NCBI RefSeq assembly: GCF_014170305.1
Contig: NZ_LZZT01000025.1
Location: 1 to 64,000, forward strand
Direction of reading: 5' to 3'
Source of the DNA: Achromobacter sp. UMC71
GTDB taxonomy: Bacteria > Pseudomonadota > Gammaproteobacteria > Burkholderiales > Burkholderiaceae_B
DNA: 64,000 nucleotides
Both the position numbers and the translations under genes were made by a program. The number at the start of each line of letters is the position of its first letter. The stretch's first letter is position 1. Shown piece by piece: positions 5,614 to 18,887 of the stretch. The notes beneath the pieces are model-generated. The model worked only from the letters and a program-made list of their open reading frames with translations, was not told the DNA's origin and ran no database searches.

Positions 5614-6617
5614 GTCGACAAAGAACCGTCAGCGACCAGATATGGCGCTCCACTCGCATGTCAGGCTTTACAGAAGAAGACAGATATGCGCTGCTCTACT
5701 TTCTGACTTCGCCATTCAGCAACGTCATCGGCGCGTATGAAGTTGTCATTCGGATTGCAGCTTCGGAAATGGGTTGGGACCCCGAATCACAACTGATGCC
5801 AGTGATGCGTCGTCTCATCGATGCCGGCATCTTGGATTTTGATCCTCAGGCGAATTACATCTGGGTCAAAGATTGGTGGGATCATCACTCAGCCAAGATG
5901 GCAGTGGCAACGACACTTAGGACAAAAACACTCGAACAGATTGAGGCACTACCTCATGGCTGGCGTGACGCATACGTGAGTGACTTTATCAATCGCCTGC
6001 CTGTCGGCGATCCCCTGCGCAGAACAGTGGCGAAAGCCCTCGCATACGGTCCATATAGGCTATCGACACCCTATGCAGAACCCGACGACGGTCGGATGTC
6101 CATTTCGGCATGCGCAAAGGATCTCCATAGAAATCAATCACTTAATGAAGGACATACGCTAGGGATAGCCTATCCCGAGGCTATGGACAGAGGCCCGGGT
6201 AACACTACTACTAACACTAACCTTATCTATAACCCTACTACTACGAGAGGCGACGACGGCCTGCATTACCCTAGAGCGCTCGTTACCGCTGAAAAGATGT
6301 CGATCCAAAACCTGCTGACCGACGTCCCATTAGCGGATGCGCAGGCGTTACTTGACGAACTGGAAGGGGCGATCAAGAAACCCGGGACCATCCAAAAATC
6401 AAAGGTCGCGTATTTCAAAGGACTCCTTAACAATCACCGCAAGGGTGGCTTCGTGCCGGCCGCAGGTATCCTGGTCGCAACAAGAAGGGAACATCAGACA
6501 GCGACCCATGATGCGTCGCGGGCATCGGATTCAGTGCAGCTCAGTAAGACTGAAACTCAAGCCCAGATTCAAAACCTCAAGGCTCAGTTGGGCATGCACA
6601 CGAGGATGCCGAAATGA
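5610..6617 (+). CDS. Replication-initiator-like winged-helix protein
   Basis: 335 residues. The N-terminal about 130 residues (DQIWRSTRMSGFTEEDRYALL to the IWVKDWWDHHSAKM segment) resemble the winged-helix N-terminal domain of phage and plasmid replication proteins that begin with a short-strand 'fixed-size genome segment' helix and an 'interaction with DNA' wing. The middle is low-complexity, rich in Thr and Asn, and the C-terminus is basic. It overlaps both neighbours by four bases. The iterons upstream support a replication role. Assignment to a named Rep family is not possible by eye, so function is inference from context. Confidence 0.5.
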   Translation: MSRQRTVSDQIWRSTRMSGFTEEDRYALLYFLTSPFSNVIGAYEVVIRIAASEMGWDPESQLMPVMRRLIDAGILDFDPQANYIWVKDWWDHHSAKMAVATTLRTKTLEQIEALPHGWRDAYVSDFINRLPVGDPLRRTVAKALAYGPYRLSTPYAEPDDGRMSISACAKDLHRNQSLNEGHTLGIAYPEAMDRGPGNTTTNTNLIYNPTTTRGDDGLHYPRALVTAEKMSIQNLLTDVPLADAQALLDELEGAIKKPGTIQKSKVAYFKGLLNNHRKGGFVPAAGILVATRREHQTATHDASRASDSVQLSKTETQAQIQNLKAQLGMHTRMPK

Positions 6618-7156
6618 AAAACGACAAGGCCACCCTCAGTGTTCGACTCAATGGCGATCTAAAGCAGCGTTGGCAGGCGTTCTGCGCCCGCCAAGACACC
6701 AACCCCAGCGATGCACTGCGACAGGTGATCGTGCGGCTGCTCAACGGTGTGTCAGCGAGCGATTCGACCAAGCCGTCAGCGTATGAGCAACCGGACACCT
6801 CACGCCGCCGCATGGAAGTCCGCCTGACCGAAACGGAATATGCACGCGTCGAGACACTGGCCTTTCAGCAGGGCATGTCAGCCAATCGCTGGGTCATTCA
6901 CCTGATACGCGCCAATCTCAGCGGCGAACCGCAGTTCGGCATGTCAGAACTGCGAACGCTGGGCGAATCGAATTCGAGGCTGCTTGCCATCGGCCGCAAC
7001 CTTAACCAGATCGCCCGGCACATAAACGCAGGACGCACGCCGGAGACGGTAGTCACTGCCGAGCGTATCGACACACTGACCCGTCACATCAAAGCCCATA
7101 CCGCGCGGGTGGCAGACATCATGCGCGCCAACATTGACCGCTGGAGGTTGGAATGA
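6614..7156 (+). CDS. mobC: MobC-like relaxosome accessory protein
   Basis: 180 residues. It has a short ribbon-helix-helix-like N-terminus (VRLNGDLKQRWQAFCAR), then the second DNA-binding-type segment VRLTETEYARVETLAFQQG. The C-terminal block LLAIGRNLNQIARHINAG is typical of MobC proteins (IGxNLNQIAR pattern). MobC proteins bind oriT and help the relaxase open the strands. Its start overlaps the preceding stop and its stop overlaps the relaxase start, so translation is probably coupled. Confidence 0.82.
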   Translation: MKNDKATLSVRLNGDLKQRWQAFCARQDTNPSDALRQVIVRLLNGVSASDSTKPSAYEQPDTSRRRMEVRLTETEYARVETLAFQQGMSANRWVIHLIRANLSGEPQFGMSELRTLGESNSRLLAIGRNLNQIARHINAGRTPETVVTAERIDTLTRHIKAHTARVADIMRANIDRWRLE

Positions 7157-8148
7157 GTCGAGTCATTGATGGGATTCTGAAAGACTGGGGCGAACGCATC
7201 TATACCAAGCCCGTCACCAGCCAAGGGACAAAGCGCACAGTGACGCGGTCACGCACGTCGCCGCCGTCCAAGCCGCTACTGTTGACCGGTAGCGCTCGCG
7301 TTCGCGACAAGTTGATGCTGACCACCCGCAAAGCGCCCGAAGTCATGGTGAAGATCTCCGGTGGCGGCAAAGGCATCGCGCAGGTCAAAGCGCACCTCGA
7401 CTACATATCGCGCAACGGCCTGGTAGAACTGGAGAACGAAGACGGCGAAATCATCCTTGGCCGTGAAGCGGTGCAGGACGTGCGCGACGAATGGAAAAGC
7501 GGCCAGTATGGCTTGCCTGACAACGGCACGCGCCGCGAAACGTTCAATATCGTGCTGTCCATGCCCCCTGGCACCGACCGGCGCGCAGTCAATGATGCCA
7601 TCCGTGCATTCGCGAAAGCAGAGTTCGGCGACAACCATGCGTATGTCTTCGCCATTCATGACGATGAAGCGCATCCCCACGGCCACCTTTGCGTCAAGGC
7701 TCTGGGCATCGACGGCAGCCGGCTCAATCCGAGAAAAGCCGACCTGCAACGATGGAGAGAACGCTTCGCCGAAGCGCTGGGTGAACAAGGCATCGAGGCC
7801 AACGCCACACCGCGCAGGGCGCGGTCACACACGCGCGTTACCGTCAAGCAGGCGACGCGACATGCCGCCAAGCGTGGCAAGAGCACCAAAGCGACCGAGC
7901 GGGAACAGCGCAGGCGTTCCGGCGTTTCACGCGCCATCAGGAATGGCTACGGGCACATCGCAAAAGCCTTGGCCGCTGGTGACGACAAGGACAAATCGCT
8001 TGCCCTGAAAATTGTTCGGTTCCTCGATCCCACGCAGGACAGGAAGCTACAGGCTCCACAGCATAGCCAGAGCGACACCGAAGCGACCAAGGACGCTCAG
8101 CGACTGGATAAGACCCACCGTTCAGGCAAAGACAACCTGAGCCGTTAA
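7153..8148 (+). CDS. mobA: MOBP-type relaxase / mobilisation nuclease
   Basis: 331-residue relaxase of the VirD2/TraI-like group that nicks oriT and pilots the strand. The Tyr in AHLDYISRNG fits the catalytic tyrosine position, and FAIHDDEAHPHGHLCVKALG is the metal-binding histidine motif (motif III). The C-terminus is strongly basic, with no primase or helicase extension, so this is a short mobilisation relaxase. No type IV coupling protein is encoded nearby, so transfer would need a helper system. The gene looks intact. Confidence 0.87.
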   Translation: MSRVIDGILKDWGERIYTKPVTSQGTKRTVTRSRTSPPSKPLLLTGSARVRDKLMLTTRKAPEVMVKISGGGKGIAQVKAHLDYISRNGLVELENEDGEIILGREAVQDVRDEWKSGQYGLPDNGTRRETFNIVLSMPPGTDRRAVNDAIRAFAKAEFGDNHAYVFAIHDDEAHPHGHLCVKALGIDGSRLNPRKADLQRWRERFAEALGEQGIEANATPRRARSHTRVTVKQATRHAAKRGKSTKATEREQRRRSGVSRAIRNGYGHIAKALAAGDDKDKSLALKIVRFLDPTQDRKLQAPQHSQSDTEATKDAQRLDKTHRSGKDNLSR

Positions 8149-8175
8149 CTTGATTGCGCAAGAAGGACCATAAAG

Positions 8176-8433
8176 ATGGCTTTACGCTACGACGCCCTGC
8201 AAGACTACTGCGATGATCCAGCGCGCACTGGTGACGTGCAGATCATCCTGTATGCGCACTACTGGAAGGGCTTTGCCTTGGCCGTACAGAACGGCACTAC
8301 AGAGTATCCCGTCATGGATGACAAGGGCCGGCCGTTCCGATTCCGAACAGTAGAAATGGCACTGGCGGAGTTGGCGAATATCTCGTACCTGTCAGACCGC
8401 ATCATCATTGACCGCAAGATGTGGTGGCCGTAG
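8176..8433 (+). CDS. Small hypothetical plasmid-associated protein
   Basis: 85 residues, mixed alpha/beta composition, with no signal or membrane segment. It lies 27 bases after the relaxase stop, behind an AGAAGGA ribosome site and ahead of a terminator, so it is probably the last gene of the rep-mob operon. I do not recognise a family. Confidence 0.6.
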   Translation: MALRYDALQDYCDDPARTGDVQIILYAHYWKGFALAVQNGTTEYPVMDDKGRPFRFRTVEMALAELANISYLSDRIIIDRKMWWP

Positions 8434-8460
8434 TCGGGAAGCTACTTTGCATTAACCGTA

Positions 8461-8487
8461 AGTACAATCAACTTCGGTTGTACTTTT
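8461..8487 (+). terminator. Terminator closing the rep-mob operon
   Basis: Stem AGTACAA/TTGTACT with a TTCG-containing loop, followed by TTT. It lies about 30 bases after the preceding stop codon. Confidence 0.72.
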
Positions 8488-8510
8488 AACTAATACGAAC
8501 GCTGCAACCG

Positions 8511-8762
8511 CCCCAAGAACGCTTCGGCGTACCGGGTGCCGGCCCGAAAAGAAGGGCCTGACGCGGGGAGATAGGCCGCGTGACCGCACCGAAGAGTAGT
8601 GTGCTGACTGCCTCGGAAAAGTTGAGGATGACTGCCCCGGAAAAGCAGGGGATGACAACACGGTAGAGACGTGTCTTTGAAAGCCCCAAGAACACTGAAC
8701 ATGTGTGCTGGGCAAGAGCCTTAAATAAGCTCCCAATGACCGGCTGGAAAGACGGCCCAGCG
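8511..8762 (+). repeat. Array of non-identical hairpins upstream of virB5 (candidate structured RNA)
   Basis: At least eight short inverted repeats follow one another. Five begin with TGAC at 8559, 8581, 8605, 8629 and 8653 (spacing 22, 24, 24, 24), and a sixth TGAC-headed one begins at 8737. Stems differ but always pair: CGCGG/CCGCG, GCAC/GTGC, CCTC/GAGG, CCCC/GGGG, ACACG/CGTGT, GCTGG/CCAGC. Other hairpins are GGCCC/GGGCC (8541-8558), ACGC(TTCG)GCGT (8519-8530) and ACAC/GTGT (8692-8706). The loops are purine-rich and several carry GGA. A 10-bp direct repeat CCCCAAGAAC occurs at 8511 and 8684. It lies between a terminator and the VirB5 start, so it may be a leader RNA or small RNA. Confidence 0.6.
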
Positions 8763-8796
8763 TTCGCCATCAACCCTACTAAATGGAGTGGCGAAC

Positions 8797-9522
8797 ATGA
8801 AGAAATTATTAGCATCTTGCATTCTGGCCGTCGGCATTGCCGCGTCATCGGCTGCCTTCGCGCAAATCCCCGTGACGGATGGCGCTTCCATCGCCAAGAG
8901 CGTGGAAAACCAGATCGAAACGATGGCGAAGTGGAAGATGCAGTACGACCAGATGGTCAGCCAGATCGACCAGATGAAACAGCAATACGCTGCGGTCACC
9001 GGCGCACGCGGTATGGGCGAACTGTTCAACAACCCGCAACTGCGGGACTACCTGCCGCAAGACTGGCAAGGCGTCTACGATTCCGTCAAATCAAGTGGCT
9101 ATGCCGGCCTGAGCGGGCGCGCTGAGTCCATCTACAACGACAACCAGGTGTATGACGCATGCACCGGCTTTGCCCTGACAGAGCAGCGCACGAACTGCGA
9201 AGCCCAAGCCGTCAAAGGTGCTCAGGATAAAGCCTTCGCGCTAGACGCCTACGACGCGGCGAAGAACCGCCTCAGCCAAATCGACCAGTTGATGCGGCAA
9301 ATCAACCAGACCCAGGACCCGAAGGCTATCGCTGAACTGCAAGGCCGCATCGCCGCCGAGCAAGCCATGATTCAGAACGAGCAGACCAAGCTACAGATGT
9401 ACCAAATGGTCGCGGCAGCCGAAGACCGCCTACAGCAACAACGGCAGAAGGAGATCAACGCAAAGATTGTTGATCAACGGGACTACCCCACCCTTCAAGT
9501 CTTCAACCCGCTTGCTCGCTAA
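8797..9522 (+). CDS. virB5: VirB5/TrbJ-like type IV secretion pilus-tip protein
   Basis: 241 residues with a signal peptide ending at AFAQ. The mature protein is alpha-helical, with long amphipathic segments (VENQIETMAKWKMQYDQM, QIDQLMRQINQTQD) and the VirB5-like early block YDQMVSQIDQMKQQY. VirB5 proteins sit at the pilus tip and help contact recipients. I chose the ATG three codons inside the longest frame because GGAG lies eight bases upstream. It heads a four-gene run with the membrane protein, EexN-like and VirB6 genes. Confidence 0.8.
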   Translation: MKKLLASCILAVGIAASSAAFAQIPVTDGASIAKSVENQIETMAKWKMQYDQMVSQIDQMKQQYAAVTGARGMGELFNNPQLRDYLPQDWQGVYDSVKSSGYAGLSGRAESIYNDNQVYDACTGFALTEQRTNCEAQAVKGAQDKAFALDAYDAAKNRLSQIDQLMRQINQTQDPKAIAELQGRIAAEQAMIQNEQTKLQMYQMVAAAEDRLQQQRQKEINAKIVDQRDYPTLQVFNPLAR

Positions 9523-9532
9523 GGAGGAAATC

Positions 9533-9979
9533 ATGGCACCGTTCTACGCAATAACACTGGTCGTGGTCGTATTACTTTGCTTTCCCATCTATCGTTTTTG
9601 GGCTTGTGCTCGCCGCTTAAGTCCCGAGCATTACCGAGAGCTTATACGGCGTGCTCCGCTGATGAGAACCCTAGATGCCATTGCATTCCTCATGGCTGCG
9701 TTCACGGCCTACTACGCAGCTATGGGATTGTGGGGATTCACGCTCCCACCCCTTGACGACGAACCCTTGCCGGCATGGATGAATATCCTGCTATCGGCGG
9801 TTACGAGCGTTGGCTGCTTCGGCGTCATTTGGACAAACGCGCCAAATCGCTTCACGGACCCGACATGGGGTGGCATGCGCGAAAGCGTCGTGCGAACCCT
9901 TGCAGCGCTACGCATTATTGAGGCCGCCGAGGTGGCCCACGCACTCAACATCATCAACACACGTGAGGCGCACAAATGA
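9533..9979 (+). CDS. Small multi-pass membrane protein between virB5 and eexN
   Basis: 148 residues with about three hydrophobic segments (near residues 4-22, 45-65 and 85-102). The start is set by AAGGAGG seven bases before the ATG. It overlaps the next gene by four bases. No family is recognised. Its place in the T4SS gene run suggests an accessory or exclusion role. Confidence 0.6.
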   Translation: MAPFYAITLVVVVLLCFPIYRFWACARRLSPEHYRELIRRAPLMRTLDAIAFLMAAFTAYYAAMGLWGFTLPPLDDEPLPAWMNILLSAVTSVGCFGVIWTNAPNRFTDPTWGGMRESVVRTLAALRIIEAAEVAHALNIINTREAHK

Positions 9980-10236
9980 AAAACACCATCTTCCCTTTCC
10001 TTGTCGTTCTCACACTCGCAGCTTGCAGTGATAACACCCCGGTTCAAACTGTCGATTGGTACAAGGCGCATGACCCCGAACGCAAGGCAATGATCGCGAA
10101 ATGCGAAGCTAATCCAGGCGAGCTCGCCGCCTCCGCCAATTGCATCAATGCCAAGACCGCAGAGAACCACCTAGCCGTCGATAAGCGTGGCTATTTCGAC
10201 CTTTCGCCTATTAATCCATTGAAGGGAGGCCAATAG
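9976..10236 (+). CDS. EexN-like entry-exclusion lipoprotein
   Basis: 86-residue lipoprotein with lipobox LAAC. After the Cys it carries the EexN family pattern: VDWYKAHDPERKAMIAKC, then NPGELAASANCINA with the spaced Cys pair. EexN-type proteins sit on the recipient side and block redundant conjugative entry, usually acting through VirB6. The virB6-like gene starts two bases after its stop. Confidence 0.78.
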   Translation: MKNTIFPFLVVLTLAACSDNTPVQTVDWYKAHDPERKAMIAKCEANPGELAASANCINAKTAENHLAVDKRGYFDLSPINPLKGGQ

Positions 10237-10237
10237 T

Positions 10238-11290
10238 ATGAAATTTGCGCTTTTTCAATGGGTAGGTGACAGTCTGGATTCCATGCTGAACTCCTTTATT
10301 TCGGGAACAGCATCTAATGTGATTTTCGGATTTCAGATGCTGATGCTAACGGGAGTCACCCTGTATATCACCATGACCGGTTACGCGATCAGCATGGGGG
10401 CAGTGGAGGCTCCGTTCCGGACGTTCCTCAAGCAATGCGTGAAGATCATCATCATCGCGACATTTTGCATGACGGCAGACTCCTATACGGCGACCATTGT
10501 GTCTGCCATTCAGGGACTGGAAACGGGTCTGGCCGACATCATGTCTACGTCCAACGCTCAGGCTATGAATATCTATCAAGTGCTCGACAACTCAGCCGAC
10601 AAAGGGCTAAATGTCGCCTATGACATGCTCGGCAAGGTTGCGAAACGGGAGTTTTACGAAATCGGCCATATGGCCTGGGATACCGTGAACGCGCTATTAA
10701 TGTCCGTCGCGGTATTTTTAGTTCACCTGCCGGCCGCAGGTACGATTATTTTGGCGAAACTATTTTTAGGTGTGATGCTCGGAATTGGCCCAGTTTTTAT
10801 TGCTGCATTGATGTTCCCGATCACCGCAAAATGGTTCGACAAGTGGTTTCAACAGGTAATGACATACATATTGGAGATTGCCATTTCCATGGTTGTCGTG
10901 TCAGTAGGAATGGGCCTATTCAAAACACTCTACGACAAGTTGATTGGGACAAATACAGATATTCCTATAAATTCTTTCTTCTATATCATCATGCTGGCAG
11001 CTCTAATCTTCTTTGCTCATAGGAAGACGAGCGGCTTGGGTGCTCAACTAGCGGGGGGTCTCGCCTTTGAAGCCGTTACGCTCAGAAGCATGGCACAGGG
11101 CATGGGTAATGTGGTGAATCCCAAGACAACGCGTCGCGATATGCAGTCTGGCATGATGGTCACTGCGGGCCGCAGTAACCACATGATTGCAGGCAACACC
11201 ATGTGGAACCCGGCCTATCGTCAACACGTCTTGCAGAACATGGGCAAGCACTGGGGACCGGCAACCGGTGGTTCAGTCAACGGCAAGTGA
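10238..11290 (+). CDS. virB6: VirB6/TrbL-like type IV secretion inner-membrane channel protein
   Basis: 350-residue polytopic membrane protein. The N-terminus (LFQWVGDSLDSMLNSFISGT) leads into about six hydrophobic segments, and the central block has the VirB6-like GIGPVFIAALMFPITAKWFDKWF motif. The C-terminus is hydrophilic. VirB6 forms part of the substrate channel. No VirB4, VirB8-VirB11 or VirD4 gene follows, so the set is incomplete. Codon use is less GC-biased than in flanking chromosomal genes. Confidence 0.84.
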   Translation: MKFALFQWVGDSLDSMLNSFISGTASNVIFGFQMLMLTGVTLYITMTGYAISMGAVEAPFRTFLKQCVKIIIIATFCMTADSYTATIVSAIQGLETGLADIMSTSNAQAMNIYQVLDNSADKGLNVAYDMLGKVAKREFYEIGHMAWDTVNALLMSVAVFLVHLPAAGTIILAKLFLGVMLGIGPVFIAALMFPITAKWFDKWFQQVMTYILEIAISMVVVSVGMGLFKTLYDKLIGTNTDIPINSFFYIIMLAALIFFAHRKTSGLGAQLAGGLAFEAVTLRSMAQGMGNVVNPKTTRRDMQSGMMVTAGRSNHMIAGNTMWNPAYRQHVLQNMGKHWGPATGGSVNGK

Positions 11291-12389: not shown

Positions 12390-14096
12390 GTGAAAATCAG
12401 AAAAATAAAGATCACGAACTTTCGGGGCGTGAAAGAGCTTGACTGGAGCCTTCCCAACGCCGACATATTCTGCCTGATTGGGAAAGGGGATTCTTCAAAA
12501 TCCACCATTATTGAGGCCATCAGGTATGCCTTCTATCCTCAGTGGAACCTGACCCTAAGTGACGCCGATTTCTACCAGTGCAAGGTAGCCAACTCTATCA
12601 TCATAGAAATCACCATTGGAGCCTTGACCGAAGCCTTCTGCGCCTTGGACAAATACGGTCAGTACCTCCGTGGCTGGGATTCCGCAGCCCTCAAGCTCAC
12701 CGACGAGCCGGAAGACCACCTGGAGAGTGTCCTGACCGTGCGGCTTACGGTCGACAAAGATCTTGAGCCTAAGTGGATGGTTGTCTGTGATCGTCACCCT
12801 GACGGTGTTCAGTTCAAGCAGGGCGATAGGAACAAGGTCAGTGTCGGCCTCATTGGTGCCTATAGCGAGAAACAGTTTTCATGGGCTACAGGCACGGCGT
12901 TGGCGAAGCTCACTGAGGCCCAAAGTCTGAACGAGTTGCTGGCAACGGCCTCTCGCACGGCCAGAGCCTCTTTGGATGCGAACCGACCTGTCACTCTCAA
13001 GAACTTCGATGCTGCGGCTGAGAAGTCTCAAGACATCGCAAAGCTGTTGGGTGTGCCTGTATCGGAGGCTTACAAGGCTCATCTCGATCTGGCCTCTATC
13101 AACCTCAAGGTTGGCGGGCTGGTTCTCCATGACGGCGACATTCCTCTTCGTCAGCTAGGTCTGGGGTCACGGCGAATGCTGCTGTGCGGCATTCAGAAAA
13201 TGGGCCTGGAAGAAGGACACATCACTTTGTTTGACGAGGTGGAGTTCGGCTTGGAACCACACCGAATCACTAGGCTCATCAAACACGTGCGAGAAGACAA
13301 GAAAGGCCAATACTTCCTCACCACGCACTCGCCTACAGTTCTGCGGGAACTGACGGTCAATGACCTGTACATCGTTCACAGCAAGGCAGGAACCGTACGG
13401 GTCACTCCCGCTTACTGTGAAGGGTTGGCTGCTCACGAGGCGCAAGGAAGAATTCGTTCTAGTGCCGAGGCGTTCTTGTCGAAGAAGGTTGTGGTCTGTG
13501 AGGGAGCTACCGAGGTCGGGTTCATGAGGGGCTATGACGACTATCAGGTTGGCAAGGGCAACGATCCATTCTCCTATCACGGCGTGTCTTTGCTGAATGC
13601 AGGTGGGGCGAGCAAGATTAAAGCTCTGGCAGAGGCTTTCAAGCTTCTCGGTTATGACGTCTGCGTTGTAGCTGACGGGGATGCAGAGAAACAGTTTTCT
13701 CCTGCTCATGAGGCTGAGTTGAGAGACAAGGGCATTTCGGTCCACGTATGGACCGACAAGCTCTCATTGGAGCAAAGAGCATTTCAGGACTTGCCGTGGA
13801 TCAGCGTGATTTCGAGTGTGCAACTCGCCCAAACTGTTCCCAGTCTGTCTGTCTACGACAACGTGCGCTCTTGGTATAAGAAGCCACTTGATGAGGACGT
13901 TATCAAGTGGGAAGACAGCCCTGAGCTGAGGCTTGCTATCGGAAATGCAGCGAAAAGCAGCGACTGGTTTAAGGACATTACCCGTGGCGATTCGTGGATG
14001 CAGACTATCAGCCCTGCGTTCGATGACGCAGATTTCTCAAAGAAGGACATGGCCGCGAAGCTCGCCCAGCTTTGGGCTTGGGCAGAGCGTGTCTGA
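12390..14096 (+). CDS. gajA: GajA-like OLD-family ATPase/TOPRIM endonuclease
   Basis: 568 residues, close to the usual GajA length. The N-terminal ABC/SMC-type ATPase has Walker A GKGDSSKST (about residues 31-39) after the typical KIRKIKITNFRGV start, and Walker B ITLFDEVEFGLEP near residue 280. A C-terminal TOPRIM domain follows, with VVVCEGATEVGF (about 366) and VADGDAEKQF (about 427) supplying the acidic metal ligands. In Gabija, GajA is a nucleotide-regulated DNA nuclease acting with GajB against phage. The GTG start has AAGGA nine bases upstream, and the stop overlaps the helicase start. Other OLD-plus-helicase pairs exist, so the Gabija name is strong but by eye. Confidence 0.82.
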   Translation: MKIRKIKITNFRGVKELDWSLPNADIFCLIGKGDSSKSTIIEAIRYAFYPQWNLTLSDADFYQCKVANSIIIEITIGALTEAFCALDKYGQYLRGWDSAALKLTDEPEDHLESVLTVRLTVDKDLEPKWMVVCDRHPDGVQFKQGDRNKVSVGLIGAYSEKQFSWATGTALAKLTEAQSLNELLATASRTARASLDANRPVTLKNFDAAAEKSQDIAKLLGVPVSEAYKAHLDLASINLKVGGLVLHDGDIPLRQLGLGSRRMLLCGIQKMGLEEGHITLFDEVEFGLEPHRITRLIKHVREDKKGQYFLTTHSPTVLRELTVNDLYIVHSKAGTVRVTPAYCEGLAAHEAQGRIRSSAEAFLSKKVVVCEGATEVGFMRGYDDYQVGKGNDPFSYHGVSLLNAGGASKIKALAEAFKLLGYDVCVVADGDAEKQFSPAHEAELRDKGISVHVWTDKLSLEQRAFQDLPWISVISSVQLAQTVPSLSVYDNVRSWYKKPLDEDVIKWEDSPELRLAIGNAAKSSDWFKDITRGDSWMQTISPAFDDADFSKKDMAAKLAQLWAWAERV

Positions 14097-15528
14097 GGAA
14101 CTGGCTCTCAAGCTCAACGACTTCACTACCAAGGGGTATGTGATAGCGCCGGCCGGCTATGGAAAGACACACCTTATCGCCATGGCGGTGAAAGCGGCTA
14201 GCAAGCGGCAGCTCGTGTTGACTCACACCTTTGCGGGTGTGAACTCCATCAGGGCCAAGATGAACAATCTTGGTGTGCCTGCTTCGAAGTACCATATTGA
14301 CACGATTGCGAGCTGGTCCCTTCGGCTCTGTCTCGCCTACCCGAAGACTTCGGCGTGGAAAGCAGAGCACCCTACGGGTAAGCAGTGGAACAAGCTCTAC
14401 GAGTGCTGTTCAGAGCTGCTTAGGAAGCAGTTCATTCGCCGCGTTGTCGCAGCCACTTATGCCGGCGTCTACGTGGACGAGTACCAGGACTGCTCCGATC
14501 TGCAGCATTCCCTAGTCTGTTCGTTTGCTGAGTTCATGCCGTGCCGAATTCTAGGCGATCCTATGCAGGCCATCTTTGACTTCGGTGGCGACGAAGGCAA
14601 GCCCGTTGATTGGACGGTAAGTGTCTATCCGGCCTTCACTTGCCTTGGTCAGCTAGAGACTCCATGGCGCTGGAAAACGACTGGAGATCCGACCCTTGGA
14701 GCTTGGCTCAAGAAGGCGAGAGAGACACTAAAACAGGGGCAGAAGATCAATATTTCAAACGGCCTGCCTGCATGTGTGAAACGTGTTCCCACCACCCCAG
14801 AATTCTTGGCGTCAAAGCAGTACTCCTCACTGATGGATTTGTTGGACCATCAGGAGAGTGTGATTGCCCTTCATTGCGGCGACCAGCAGTCCAAGAACAA
14901 GACCCATCTCTTGGCAAGAACCATGGGTGGACGGTTTTCTTCCATTGAAGAAGTTGAAGGCAAAGACCTTCACTCGTTCATCAGGAGACTGGTTTCAGCC
15001 AAGACACCCCAGCAAAGCTTTCTTCTGGCTTTGGATTTTTCCAAGAAGTGCTTCACCGGAGTGGGCGAGATCTTGACCGCCGGCACTAAGAGAGGCGAGG
15101 TCGCGAAGCAGAGCAAAGGAACCAAATATCCCTTGGTTCTTCATGCTGCGAATATCTACCTCAAAGAACCGACAAGTGCGCACCTTAGAGCTTTCTTCTT
15201 GGCGCTGAAAGCGAATCCCGATACATCAGCCTACCGGCGCGACTTGCTGTATCGCTTCTTCAATATCTTGAAAATTCACATTGACGGGGGAGCGGCGACA
15301 TTGACGGAGGCAGCAAAATTGTACCAACGAGACATGAGGCACACGGGGCGACCGATCAGCCACCGCAAGCTCATCGGCACAACTCTACTGGTCAAGGGGT
15401 TGGAATACGACCATGCAGTCATCCTTGACGCTGACACACTGGACGCCAAGGATCTGTACGTTGCAATGACCCGTGGGTCCAAGTCATTGACGATCATTAG
15501 TTCCAAACACGAATTGCCTGTGAAGTAG
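14089..15528 (+). CDS. gajB: GajB-like UvrD/SF1 helicase
   Basis: 479 residues. SF1 helicase motifs are in order: Walker A APAGYGKTHL (about residues 19-28), motif II VDEYQDCSDLQ (about 128), and the C-terminal VKGLEYDHAVILDAD and YVAMTRG blocks of motifs V and VI. The length matches GajB (about 490). The GTG start overlaps the nuclease stop by eight bases, so expression should be coupled. In Gabija, GajB senses DNA ends and nucleotides and works in a complex with GajA. Moderate GC and weaker codon bias than the core genes suggest transfer. Confidence 0.82.
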   Translation: MSEELALKLNDFTTKGYVIAPAGYGKTHLIAMAVKAASKRQLVLTHTFAGVNSIRAKMNNLGVPASKYHIDTIASWSLRLCLAYPKTSAWKAEHPTGKQWNKLYECCSELLRKQFIRRVVAATYAGVYVDEYQDCSDLQHSLVCSFAEFMPCRILGDPMQAIFDFGGDEGKPVDWTVSVYPAFTCLGQLETPWRWKTTGDPTLGAWLKKARETLKQGQKINISNGLPACVKRVPTTPEFLASKQYSSLMDLLDHQESVIALHCGDQQSKNKTHLLARTMGGRFSSIEEVEGKDLHSFIRRLVSAKTPQQSFLLALDFSKKCFTGVGEILTAGTKRGEVAKQSKGTKYPLVLHAANIYLKEPTSAHLRAFFLALKANPDTSAYRRDLLYRFFNILKIHIDGGAATLTEAAKLYQRDMRHTGRPISHRKLIGTTLLVKGLEYDHAVILDADTLDAKDLYVAMTRGSKSLTIISSKHELPVK

Positions 15529-17203: not shown

Positions 17204-18887
17204 GAGGCTGTGTGAAAACACAAAAATCTATCAACGTCTCAGCAAGTTGGTCAGTAGATTGCGGATGAAGCCCTATTTCAGCAGCTTTTGGGAATAAGAG
17301 CGGTCTCACCTCTTTGGTGGCGTTTCTGAGCGCTTTGATGCCCTGATTTCACACCTAAAAAGGGCTCACCCACCCACCAGACGCATTGCAGCCATTGTCT
17401 TGTCAAACCCAAGAATGCAAAGTACTCGCTTGAGGTTGTAGGCCAGTACATTCAAGCTCATCTCGGTACTGACGTTGCGCAGCCGCTTGGTCAAAAAGTG
17501 CGTGTATCCCATCCAATTCTTGAGCGTGCCAAACACGTGCTCGACTGTCCTTCTTCTGACCATCATGGCGTCGGGCATTTGCTCCAAGCGCTGTTGTGCG
17601 CGCTCCAGCACATCTTCGTGCTCCCACCGACTGATGCGGCGGTAGTCACTGGGTGTGCATTGGGATTTCATCATGCATTGCGTGCAAGCACTGCTCCAGT
17701 AGCGTCGTATCTGCAGTCCATTCTCTTCGCGCGTGAAGCGGTAGGTAGCACGTTGTCCAGCAGGGCATTGGTACTCATCCTCGCTCTGGATGTAGACGAA
17801 ATCTGAACGGTCAAAGCGCCCTTGGGCTCGTGCACCTGATGTGTTGGGTTTGGGAAGAATGGCTGCAACGCCTGTGTCTTCACACGCTTTGATCTGCTCG
17901 CCGCTGTAGTAGCCACGATCCGCAATGGATTGCAGCTTGCGCTTTCCCATCGCCTTGCGTGCAGCCAGCGCCATTGATGCCAGAGCACTTCTGTCATGCC
18001 CCAGGTTGGTAACTTCCTGAGCAACGATGAGGTGATGTTTGGCATCCACCGCCACCTGAACGTTATAAGCCACCATGCCCGAGCCACGGCCACTGGTTGC
18101 CATGGAGCGCGCATCAGGGTCTGTCATTGATAGCTGCTTCTCAGGCAGTTCTTTGAGCTGCCCCTTCACTTGCTCGAGCACTTGCATTTGTTTGCGGAGC
18201 ATGGCGATCTTGTCTTGGAGTCGCGCGGTACGTGCTTCAAGTTCCACAGGCTGCGTGCGATCTGCCGTATCCAGGGCCGCCAGATAGCGCTGAATACTTT
18301 CTTCGATCTGCTGCTGACGCTTGTCTATCTTTCCCAAGGTAAAGTTTTTGTCACGCGCGTTGACGGCCTTGAACTTACTACCGTCAATTGCAACCAGCGC
18401 CTTGCTGAACAGCTTCAAATCACGGCAGAGCACCACAAATCGTCGGCACACATTGCGGATGCCCGGGCCGTTGTCCCGACGAAAGTCAGCAATCGTTTTA
18501 AAGTCAGGCGCCAAGCGTCCCGTGAGCCACATCAGCTCAACATTGCGCTGAGCCTCTCGCTCCAGGCGACGACTGGATTGGATGCGATTGAGGTATCCGT
18601 AGATGTAGACCTTGAGCAGCACTGCGGGGCGGTATGCCGGGCGCCCTGTGGCTGCTGGCGTTGATCCATCAAAGCCAAGTGAGAGCAGGTCCAGCTCTTC
18701 AACGAACGCATCGACAATGCGCACAGGGTTGTCTTCGCCCACAAAGTCATCGAGACATTCTGGCAGCAAGGTCACTTGCTCGCGGCTCTGGCCTTCAATG
18801 AATCTCTTCATAGGTCACCTCGCTCAAAACGGGTGCCGTGATTTTAATTTCTGAAGCGCCTTCAACCAAGCGTTTTCACACAGCCTC
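17204..18887 (-). mobile_element. IS1182-type insertion sequence, complete
   Basis: A 16-bp perfect terminal inverted repeat, GAGGCTGTGTGAAAAC on the left and its complement ending at 18887, bounds one transposase gene. The flanks carry the direct repeat GGTC (17200-17203 and 18888-18891), a candidate 4-bp target duplication. The element is about 1.68 kb. Confidence 0.85.
17366..18811 (-). CDS. IS1182-family DDE transposase
   Basis: 481 residues. The N-terminal region (VGEDNPVRIVDAFVEELDL, RPAYRPAVLLKVYIYGYLNR) and the LVAIDGSKFKAVNARDKNF segment with the first catalytic Asp are typical of IS1182 transposases. A cysteine-rich insert follows (CTQCMMKSQCTPSDYRR), then RRTVEHVFGTLKNWMG with the catalytic Glu. 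The frame is uninterrupted and the inverted repeats are intact, so the element may be active. Confidence 0.92.
   Translation of the reverse strand: MKRFIEGQSREQVTLLPECLDDFVGEDNPVRIVDAFVEELDLLSLGFDGSTPAATGRPAYRPAVLLKVYIYGYLNRIQSSRRLEREAQRNVELMWLTGRLAPDFKTIADFRRDNGPGIRNVCRRFVVLCRDLKLFSKALVAIDGSKFKAVNARDKNFTLGKIDKRQQQIEESIQRYLAALDTADRTQPVELEARTARLQDKIAMLRKQMQVLEQVKGQLKELPEKQLSMTDPDARSMATSGRGSGMVAYNVQVAVDAKHHLIVAQEVTNLGHDRSALASMALAARKAMGKRKLQSIADRGYYSGEQIKACEDTGVAAILPKPNTSGARAQGRFDRSDFVYIQSEDEYQCPAGQRATYRFTREENGLQIRRYWSSACTQCMMKSQCTPSDYRRISRWEHEDVLERAQQRLEQMPDAMMVRRRTVEHVFGTLKNWMGYTHFLTKRLRNVSTEMSLNVLAYNLKRVLCILGFDKTMAAMRLVGG

Follow-up and report, generated by a model that had tools for sequence, protein, structure and literature searches.

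The window analysed here, a 64,000-nt stretch of DNA from Achromobacter sp. UMC71, is read as containing an integrative mobilizable element, which is the host of an array of short hairpins lying directly 5′ of virB5. The genes around the array are as follows.

1512–1596, tRNA-Leu gene
1732–2862, integrase gene
6614–7156, + strand, MobC/NikA-like gene (profile match)
7153–8148, + strand, MobA/VirD2-type relaxase gene (match to the MobP1 model below its cut-off)
8176–8433, + strand, orf8176, 85 amino acids, just 5′ of the leader, a candidate trans factor
8797–9522, + strand, virB5 (TIGR02791, E 2.5e-97; PF07996, E 4.3e-69; both scanned from 8788, the start being taken as the ATG at 8797)
9533–9979, + strand, small conserved cassette orf of no family
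9976–10236, + strand, eexN, entry-exclusion lipoprotein (NF033894, E 2.5e-22)
10238–11290, + strand, virB6 (TrbL/VirB6; PF04610, E 6.5e-44)

This gene order indicates that the array precedes a cassette and not a complete transfer operon. As cargo 3′ of the cassette, a Gabija-type pair is present at 12390–15528 (GajA, PDLC04168, E 1.3e-207; GajB, PDLC04173, E 5.1e-167), the reading frames of which overlap as listed, and an IS-type transposase gene with DUF772/DDE domains is found at 17366–18811. Another contig of the assembly, C48, matches window positions 1–32635 at 99.985% identity and differs beyond them, and 66 nt of the tRNA-Leu region are found again near C48 position 64686; the two contigs may represent two variants of the element, two strains or an effect of assembly.

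A preliminary description of the array had quoted six stems, all of which were located in the sequence, and a direct repeat, CCCCAAGAAC, which was found at both 8511 and 8684. The tetranucleotide TGAC occurs at 8559, 8581, 8605, 8629, 8653 and 8737, with intervals of 22, 24, 24 and 24 nt and then 84 nt. The copies of CCCCAAGAAC sit in a 14-nt near-match at 8510 and 8683, and they are the first bases of a 52-nt module, termed module A, that is present twice in the leader. The module at 8511–8562, its copy at 8684–8740, a dyad at 8460–8485 and a hairpin at 8762–8796 around the virB5 Shine–Dalgarno sequence are additions to the earlier description. The features of the array (8460–8797) are given below, with loops in square brackets and with scores from R1, the covariance model of the module described further on.

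8460–8485, + strand, dyad or hairpin P0, AAGTACAA[TCAACTTCGG]TTGTACTT, seen in the sequence 5′ of the array; an operator or an RNA hairpin
8511–8562, + strand, module A copy 1 (R1 80.4 bits, the window row being one of the eight from which the model was built)
8511–8513 with 8534–8536, + strand, P1 of copy 1, CCC/GGG, followed by an internal loop
8519–8522 with 8527–8530, + strand, P2 of copy 1, ACGC/GCGT
8541–8558, + strand, P3 of copy 1, GGCCC[GAAAAGAA]GGGCC, with TGAC after it at 8559–8562
8562–8580, + strand, hairpin CGCGG[GGAGATAGG]CCGCG (arms 8562–8566 and 8576–8580)
8585–8603, + strand, hairpin CGCAC[CGAAGAGTA]GTGTG (arms 8585–8589 and 8599–8603), with TGAC before it at 8581–8584
8586–8589 with 8601–8604, + strand, alternative pairing GCAC/GTGC
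8611–8627, + strand, hairpin CCTC[GGAAAAGTT]GAGG (arms 8611–8614 and 8624–8627), with TGAC before it at 8605–8608
8635–8651, + strand, hairpin CCCC[GGAAAAGCA]GGGG (arms 8635–8638 and 8648–8651), with TGAC before it at 8629–8632
8658–8674, + strand, hairpin ACACG[GTAGAGA]CGTGT (arms 8658–8662 and 8670–8674), with TGAC before it at 8653–8656
8684–8740, + strand, module A copy 2 (R1 only 17.8 bits, E 0.019)
8684–8686 with 8710–8712, + strand, P1 of copy 2, CCC/GGG
8692–8695 with 8703–8706, + strand, P2 of copy 2, ACAC/GTGT
8716–8732, + strand, hairpin of copy 2, GAGC[CTTAAATAA]GCTC, with TGAC after it at 8737–8740
8743–8761, + strand, hairpin GCTGG[AAAGACGGC]CCAGC (arms 8743–8747 and 8757–8761)
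8762–8796, + strand, hairpin GTTCGCCA/TGGCGAAC, with the Shine–Dalgarno GGAG (8785–8788) in its loop and the ATG at 8797

The window leader contains 11 short hairpins, compared with 5.9±1.7 in dinucleotide shuffles (two of 200 shuffles had as many), and its summed stem score of 125 was reached by none of 200 shuffles (65±18). The minimum free energy of 8500–8790 is ordinary, with a z-score of −1.13 and 26 of 200 shuffles folding as well, and the case for the array therefore rests on comparison and not on energy. When 16 leaders were treated in the same way, the excess in hairpin number was clear in eight (reached by at most 8/200 shuffles), weak in four (17–37/200) and absent in four (92–147/200).

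In the first type of leader, to which the window belongs, each leader carries a module of the form CCC N AAG N [P2] R C Y GG, with P1 as UCC/GGA in some, which is followed by a hairpin and then mostly by TGAC or a similar sequence. The loop of this module hairpin is mostly GAAAAGAA in first copies and CTTAAANAA in several second copies. Both between and after the module copies there are additional hairpins, the loops of which include GGAAAAG, GGAACAG and GAAAG. By eye, the hairpins between copies number five in both the window and pAt3, compared with four in pXap41 and two in Sulfuriferula; the sibling islands and genome G531 have a single one. Dyads of other sequence are found by eye on plasmids at a place like that of P0.

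The alignment A2 comprises eight modules (seven first copies and one second copy) with 13 pairs, and is the source of R1. All of its 104 cells are paired, with two-sided changes in four of the 13 pairs, whereas slid partners are paired in only 11.5–53.8% of cells. The larger alignment A5 comprises 41 R1 matches in 29 distinct rows; being fitted to the model it leans towards it, and its cell counts represent sequences rather than events. Within these limits, 97.4% of its 350 cells are paired, two-sided changes occur in eight of the 13 pairs, and 30 two-sided cells are seen compared with 6.2±2.1 in shuffles (0/500). Five of the nine unpaired cells fall at the innermost P2 pair, U-G is found in five cells of the P3 closing pair, and in the 3-bp helix P1 a C-G pair is replaced by U-A in three rows. 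Outside the module, the pAt3 counterpart of the GCTGG/CCAGC stem is GCCGG/CCGGC, which is likewise compensatory. The hairpin array is thus real and conserved, and the selection on structure proposed in the preliminary description is confirmed by its homologues through the compensatory changes in A2, in A5 and in a second type of leader (see below).

The second copies of the module vary in how well they match R1. That of pAt3 has the same arrangement as copy 2 of the window and scores 19.5 bits, and stronger second copies are found in L186 (41.9 bits) and L187 (38.9 bits). When R1 was run over 141 of the 144 loci of two pattern scans, scores of up to 29.2 bits were obtained, inflated because the loci had been preselected by the same sequence pattern. 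Since scores of 18–29 bits recur among these preselected loci, the assignment of the weak second copies rests on their position.

A covariance search had been suggested in the preliminary description as a check, and R1, built from the modules, located modules on other elements. A BLASTN search with 8434–8810 recovered 19 PLSDB records with a homologous leader, 14 of them from Xanthomonas and one each from Agrobacterium, Sulfuriferula, Pandoraea, Comamonas and Variovorax. In all ten records that were retrieved, four of which (L023–L026) have identical leaders, the match lies 5′ of virB5, entering its first bases in two; in the other nine, virB5 is annotated beneath longer BLAST matches. The annotation of virB5 in L022 says no more than type IV secretion system protein, and its match to VirB5 comes from tblastn. 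An orf and eexN follow virB5 in each of the ten (eexN of L022 by tblastn), and virB6 follows in nine, the record of L025 stopping after eexN.

Within the same family, 11 sibling islands (L225–L235) share the order mobC–relaxase–orf8176–leader–virB5–orf–eexN–virB6, with an integrase gene seen in eight of the 11 stretches; L234 has only a partial mobC, and no match to rep was seen there. The divergent island L236, from genome G531, has its own integrase (83% identical), two modules and a leader. The comparison with homologous virB5–eexN–virB6 regions that had been proposed therefore places the leader at the same position on ten plasmids and in 12 islands. In the R1 search of the family, 20 of 268 genomes passed E 0.01, of which 13 are real by context (the window's own genome, the 11 siblings and G531), a count that leaves aside six weak matches (G519, G576, G577, G632, G665 and G672). 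The match in G566 was rejected after inspection of its context. Among 369 genomes of the class, R1 matched only the window's own genome and G154, and the cassette genes had no match in the G154 stretch. The pattern scan of genome contigs gave at least 119 stretches, the pattern being too loose; few of these passed the context filter and, among the matches listed, only L042, L080 (the L022 record) and L110 were real by eye. The same scan of viral contigs gave 25 stretches, none of which was real by the context filter and by eye.

The second type of leader was found through orf8176, in L182, L241, L242, L243 and L244, where a different leader precedes the same cassette. The R1 module has no match at E 1 in L241–L244 and none in L182. 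In this leader, a hairpin whose loop CTCCGYGCTGCGC is conserved is accompanied by a Shine–Dalgarno hairpin and by one or two others with loops resembling GAA(C)AG, so that purine-loop hairpins and a Shine–Dalgarno hairpin are common to both types. Alignment A7 contains four second-type leaders, L242 being left out as nearly identical to L241, with 27 pairs drawn by hand on the Morganella row. It is paired in 95.3% of 107 cells and has two-sided changes in six of 27 pairs, compared with none for every slide; the number of further pair types is within the range of shuffles (77/500). With four sequences, this covariation may be taken as modest evidence.

Some other features of these loci were observed. 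The loop CTCCGYGCTGCGC, 13 nt in length, includes CUCC, which is complementary to the Shine–Dalgarno GGAG, and a long-range pairing is possible. Two more dyads, GGTGACA...TGTCACC and ATGCCAAA...TTTTGGCAT or the like, keep their place 5′ of the leader in L241, L182, L243, L244, L042 and L110, and may be operators or RNA hairpins. The carbapenemase genes IMP-19 and GES-5 are annotated on the second-type plasmids L241 and L242.

At its 3′ end, the leader reaches the ribosome site of virB5. By eye, a hairpin able to pair with or enclose the virB5 Shine–Dalgarno sequence is present in 15 of the 16 leaders, the sixteenth, that of G531, giving an ambiguous reading. In nine of the 16 (pXap41, plb, X. 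fragariae, pLMG965, X. hydrangeae, Pseudomonas, Achromobacter, Acidovorax and Morganella) an upstream CTCC or CTCCT can, by eye, pair with a GGAG or AGGAG Shine–Dalgarno; only the outer loop-side pair of this kind varies, being A-U or U-A, or lost in two of the four second-type leaders. In six (the window, pAt3, L003, L005, Sulfuriferula and Collimonas) a GTTCGCC/GGCGAAC stem surrounds the Shine–Dalgarno; this stem is invariant in the window's clade, and there the Shine–Dalgarno lies in the loop.

The leader has also moved between elements. Window positions 8505–8790 are 93.7% identical to pAt3 over 287 nt, whereas the 200 nt 5′ of the leader have no match in pAt3 and are 87.6–94.5% identical in four sibling islands. 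On the other side, the 5′ part of virB5 is 92–94% alike in the four siblings and about 67–71% alike in pAt3 (67% over 165/305 nt). Within the leader the longest match to the siblings is 50 nt, and the plasmid BLASTN match ends at 8800, near the virB5 start. As the leader matches pAt3 while its flanks match the siblings, it has been exchanged between elements as a unit, in the window with a pAt3-like plasmid, with one end of the exchanged piece at the virB5 start; this supports the view that the leader may be self-contained and may work with either cassette. As a separate observation, the virB5 genes of L225, L228, L231 and L234, which have the sibling type of leader, are 90–92% identical to that of the window, and in the same islands eexN (60%) and virB6 (48–49%) are of another type, as if the exclusion specificity had been swapped.

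The genes that accompany the cassette bear on what kind of element carries it. In six-frame searches with PF03135, VirB4 was found in none of 15 leader plasmid records (ten of the first type and five of the second) and was not found in the genome of the window, so that the element is without a complete transfer pore of its own. VirB10 (PF03743) was found in one of the 15 records (Comamonas, partial) and in both of two PromA records, and was absent from the genome of the window. Among the 12 other island genomes, VirB4 is present in four (G035, G039, G049 and G627), each time on a different contig or at a distance of over 1 Mb, and absent in eight. The label conjugative, given in PLSDB (MOB-suite) to 18 of the 19 leader plasmids, is not borne out, as VirB4 is missing from all ten that were tested. 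By the same six-frame search, VirB4 is present in seven of eight virB5 plasmids without an R1 module in the stretch examined; in these eight, virB5 overlaps the preceding annotated gene or starts at most 42 nt after it. The exception is BPP5P1 (L180), 12 kb in length, which has virB5–eexN–virB6 and no VirB4, and in which neither type of leader was found by eye or with R1, and the cassette therefore does not always need a leader. From their gene content, the carriers of the leader look like satellites, with some pore subunits and an exclusion gene and no complete pore.

Two sequence motifs recur in the leaders. Counts were made in 13 of the 16 leaders (the near-duplicates L005, L042 and L029 were dropped), which are related, so that the counts are not independent. 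TGAC occurs 36 times compared with 12.6±3.4 in shuffles, and GAA[AC]?AG occurs 47 times compared with 11.3±3.3, its longer form GGAA[AC]?AG occurring 26 times compared with 3.1±1.8. In Rfam 15, the best match of 8000–9300 was ceN108 at 20.4 bits, compared with a gathering threshold of 50, and in eight homologous loci no match fell within a leader, with three weak matches elsewhere in the loci; the earlier statement that the array belongs to no named family thus holds as far as Rfam 15. Among open-licence papers, none was found, by title and the start of the abstract, to describe an RNA leader 5′ of virB5 in elements of this kind, and passages of PMC7039861 contain nothing on one.

On balance, we consider it somewhat probable that the array is the structured 5′ leader of a virB5–orf–eexN–virB6 mRNA and controls its translation in cis, probably through a trans-acting factor. 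Against this reading, a search of 8380–8830 gave no promoter of the sigma-70 type. The leader would consist of the 52-nt module used twice, with one to five hairpins between the copies. The module would form P1–P2 with the conserved AAG internal loop and then a hairpin with the loop GAAAAGAA or CUUAAANAA, many of the intervening hairpins would be headed by UGAC and have purine loops of the type GAA[A/C]AG, and the last hairpin of the leader would pair with or enclose the virB5 Shine–Dalgarno. The repeated loops may be sites for the trans-acting factor, most likely an RNA-binding protein, the binding of which would change access to the Shine–Dalgarno and so set the amount of VirB5–EexN–VirB6. 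Making these subunits would be worthwhile only in the presence of a helper that provides the remaining parts of a P-type T4SS. The leader probably controls when two parts of the transfer pore are made. The preliminary interpretation stands in part: selection on structure and the lack of a named family were upheld and, of its three options for function, the virB5 leader is the best supported, whereas CsrA binding, a transfer or replication origin and a minus-strand peptide were not.

The candidate for the factor is the product of orf8176. Its homologues occur in 26 PLSDB records, which include all 19 leader plasmids; of the other seven, all five that were examined have a complete or largely complete cassette (L243 without an annotated virB5, and Morganella with a table that ends at eexN), a count that omits CP077786 and AP025672. 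The gene lies directly 5′ of the leader in all 11 sibling islands and, among 399 genomes drawn from the order, was seen only in the window's own genome and G852. It had no match in 20 kb of the divergent island L236, although a leader is present there, and therefore a need for orf8176 in cis cannot be general. On plasmids the gene adjoins repA, so that a plain backbone role is possible, and sequence comparison with Pfam, PHROGs and PDB gave no relatives above noise.

A stronger form of the translational reading, which we regard as unlikely, is that the leader acts as a helper sensor: the pore subunits would be translationally silent until a factor linked to the helper binds the loops and frees the ribosome site, and the RNA would be exchanged between elements as a cartridge.

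Control could instead be transcriptional, with the leader acting as an attenuator or as a processive antitermination element read by RNA polymerase. A long structured leader before an operon, in which wide variation in hairpin number is tolerated, would suit such a role. However, no terminator-like site was found on the + strand at 8380–8830, and the structure extends to the Shine–Dalgarno in the 15 leaders noted above, which makes this explanation rather unlikely.

The array might also function as DNA, through single-stranded hairpins or iterons in transfer, replication or recombination, and an origin had been among the earlier suggestions. The carrier is a mobile element, of which a single strand would be transferred, the regular spacing of 22–24 nt is iteron-like, and the relaxase gene of the island ends 0.36 kb upstream. 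However, about 4 kb separates the array from mobC and the relaxase gene in five annotated plasmids while the array stays 5′ of virB5, the units are not conserved in sequence as iterons would be, U-G pairs are present and the exchanged piece stops at the virB5 start; a DNA element is thus improbable and the origin unsupported.

A passive leader, the hairpins of which merely stabilise or insulate the mRNA without a specific partner, would account for the variation in hairpin number and sequence, for stems that are free to change and for the one cassette plasmid that is leaderless. Against it, the P3 stem is less well conserved than either the loop GAAAAGAA or the internal loop AAG, and we consider a passive role decidedly improbable.

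The preliminary description had pointed to CsrA/RsmA, either binding the leader or being titrated by the RNA. The loops are purine-rich, some with GGA, and Shine–Dalgarno sites are usual targets of CsrA. In the 13 leaders, however, GGA is at chance (69 compared with 67.4±6.0), the ANGGA core is below chance when counted over whole leaders and not loops only (8 compared with 16.2±3.6), the enriched motif is GAA[AC]?AG and GAAAAGAA, the loop with the best conservation, lacks GGA, leaving this explanation very doubtful. That the minus strand encodes a repeat peptide, also raised earlier, is hardly credible: among 16 leaders, 11 have at least one minus frame open across the core (two in the window), but the other five have none that is open throughout, a 1-nt indel separates the P2 loops of the near-identical siblings L225 and L228, and the 22/24-nt spacing shifts the frame.

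Leader RNAs are known in which protein binding governs the ribosome site, and the array resembles these in its loops, which are candidate binding sites, and in its hidden Shine–Dalgarno; it differs from known leader RNAs in that no Rfam family matches it in sequence and structure. The CsrA-titrating RNAs of the CsrB/RsmZ type are also composed of tandem hairpins with purine-rich loops, whereas in the array ANGGA is depleted and the hairpins are tied to a downstream gene. The array defines an RNA family by which freeloading plasmids and islands with a VirB5–EexN–VirB6 cassette are marked, and it could assist in distinguishing satellites from plasmids that are self-transmissible. Should the leader control the cassette, the timing of helper-pore remodelling by satellites becomes testable, and if it is a helper sensor, a single RNA signal would connect a parasitic element with the plasmid that it exploits.

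The closest parallels to the cassette are found in other mobilizable islands. SGI1, which has no pore of its own, carries the spare subunits TraN, TraH and TraG, which remodel the helper pore and disable entry exclusion, and their expression is tied to the helper by the transcription activator AcaCD acting at promoters (PMC5389848); the subunits include a VirB6 homologue, so called in PMC5704250. Like SGI1, the element described here lacks a complete pore and carries spare pore subunits that include one of the VirB6 type. Unlike SGI1, it carries P-type VirB5–EexN–VirB6 and a structured leader, and the abstract of PMC5389848 mentions no RNA leader. GIsul2 has TrbJ(VirB5)–TrbK–TrbL(VirB6)-like genes, and an IncP island has TrbJ, a 69-aa protein and TrbL (PMC5704250). 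As described there, both resemble the present element in carrying VirB5- and VirB6-like genes while lacking the remainder of the pore, and GIsul2 also has an exclusion gene; compared by description only, they differ in that their genes are of the IncP type, and no RNA leader is mentioned in the parts of PMC5704250 consulted. The cassette behind the leader is therefore of a known kind, since SGI1, GIsul2 and the IncP island all carry comparable pore subunits.
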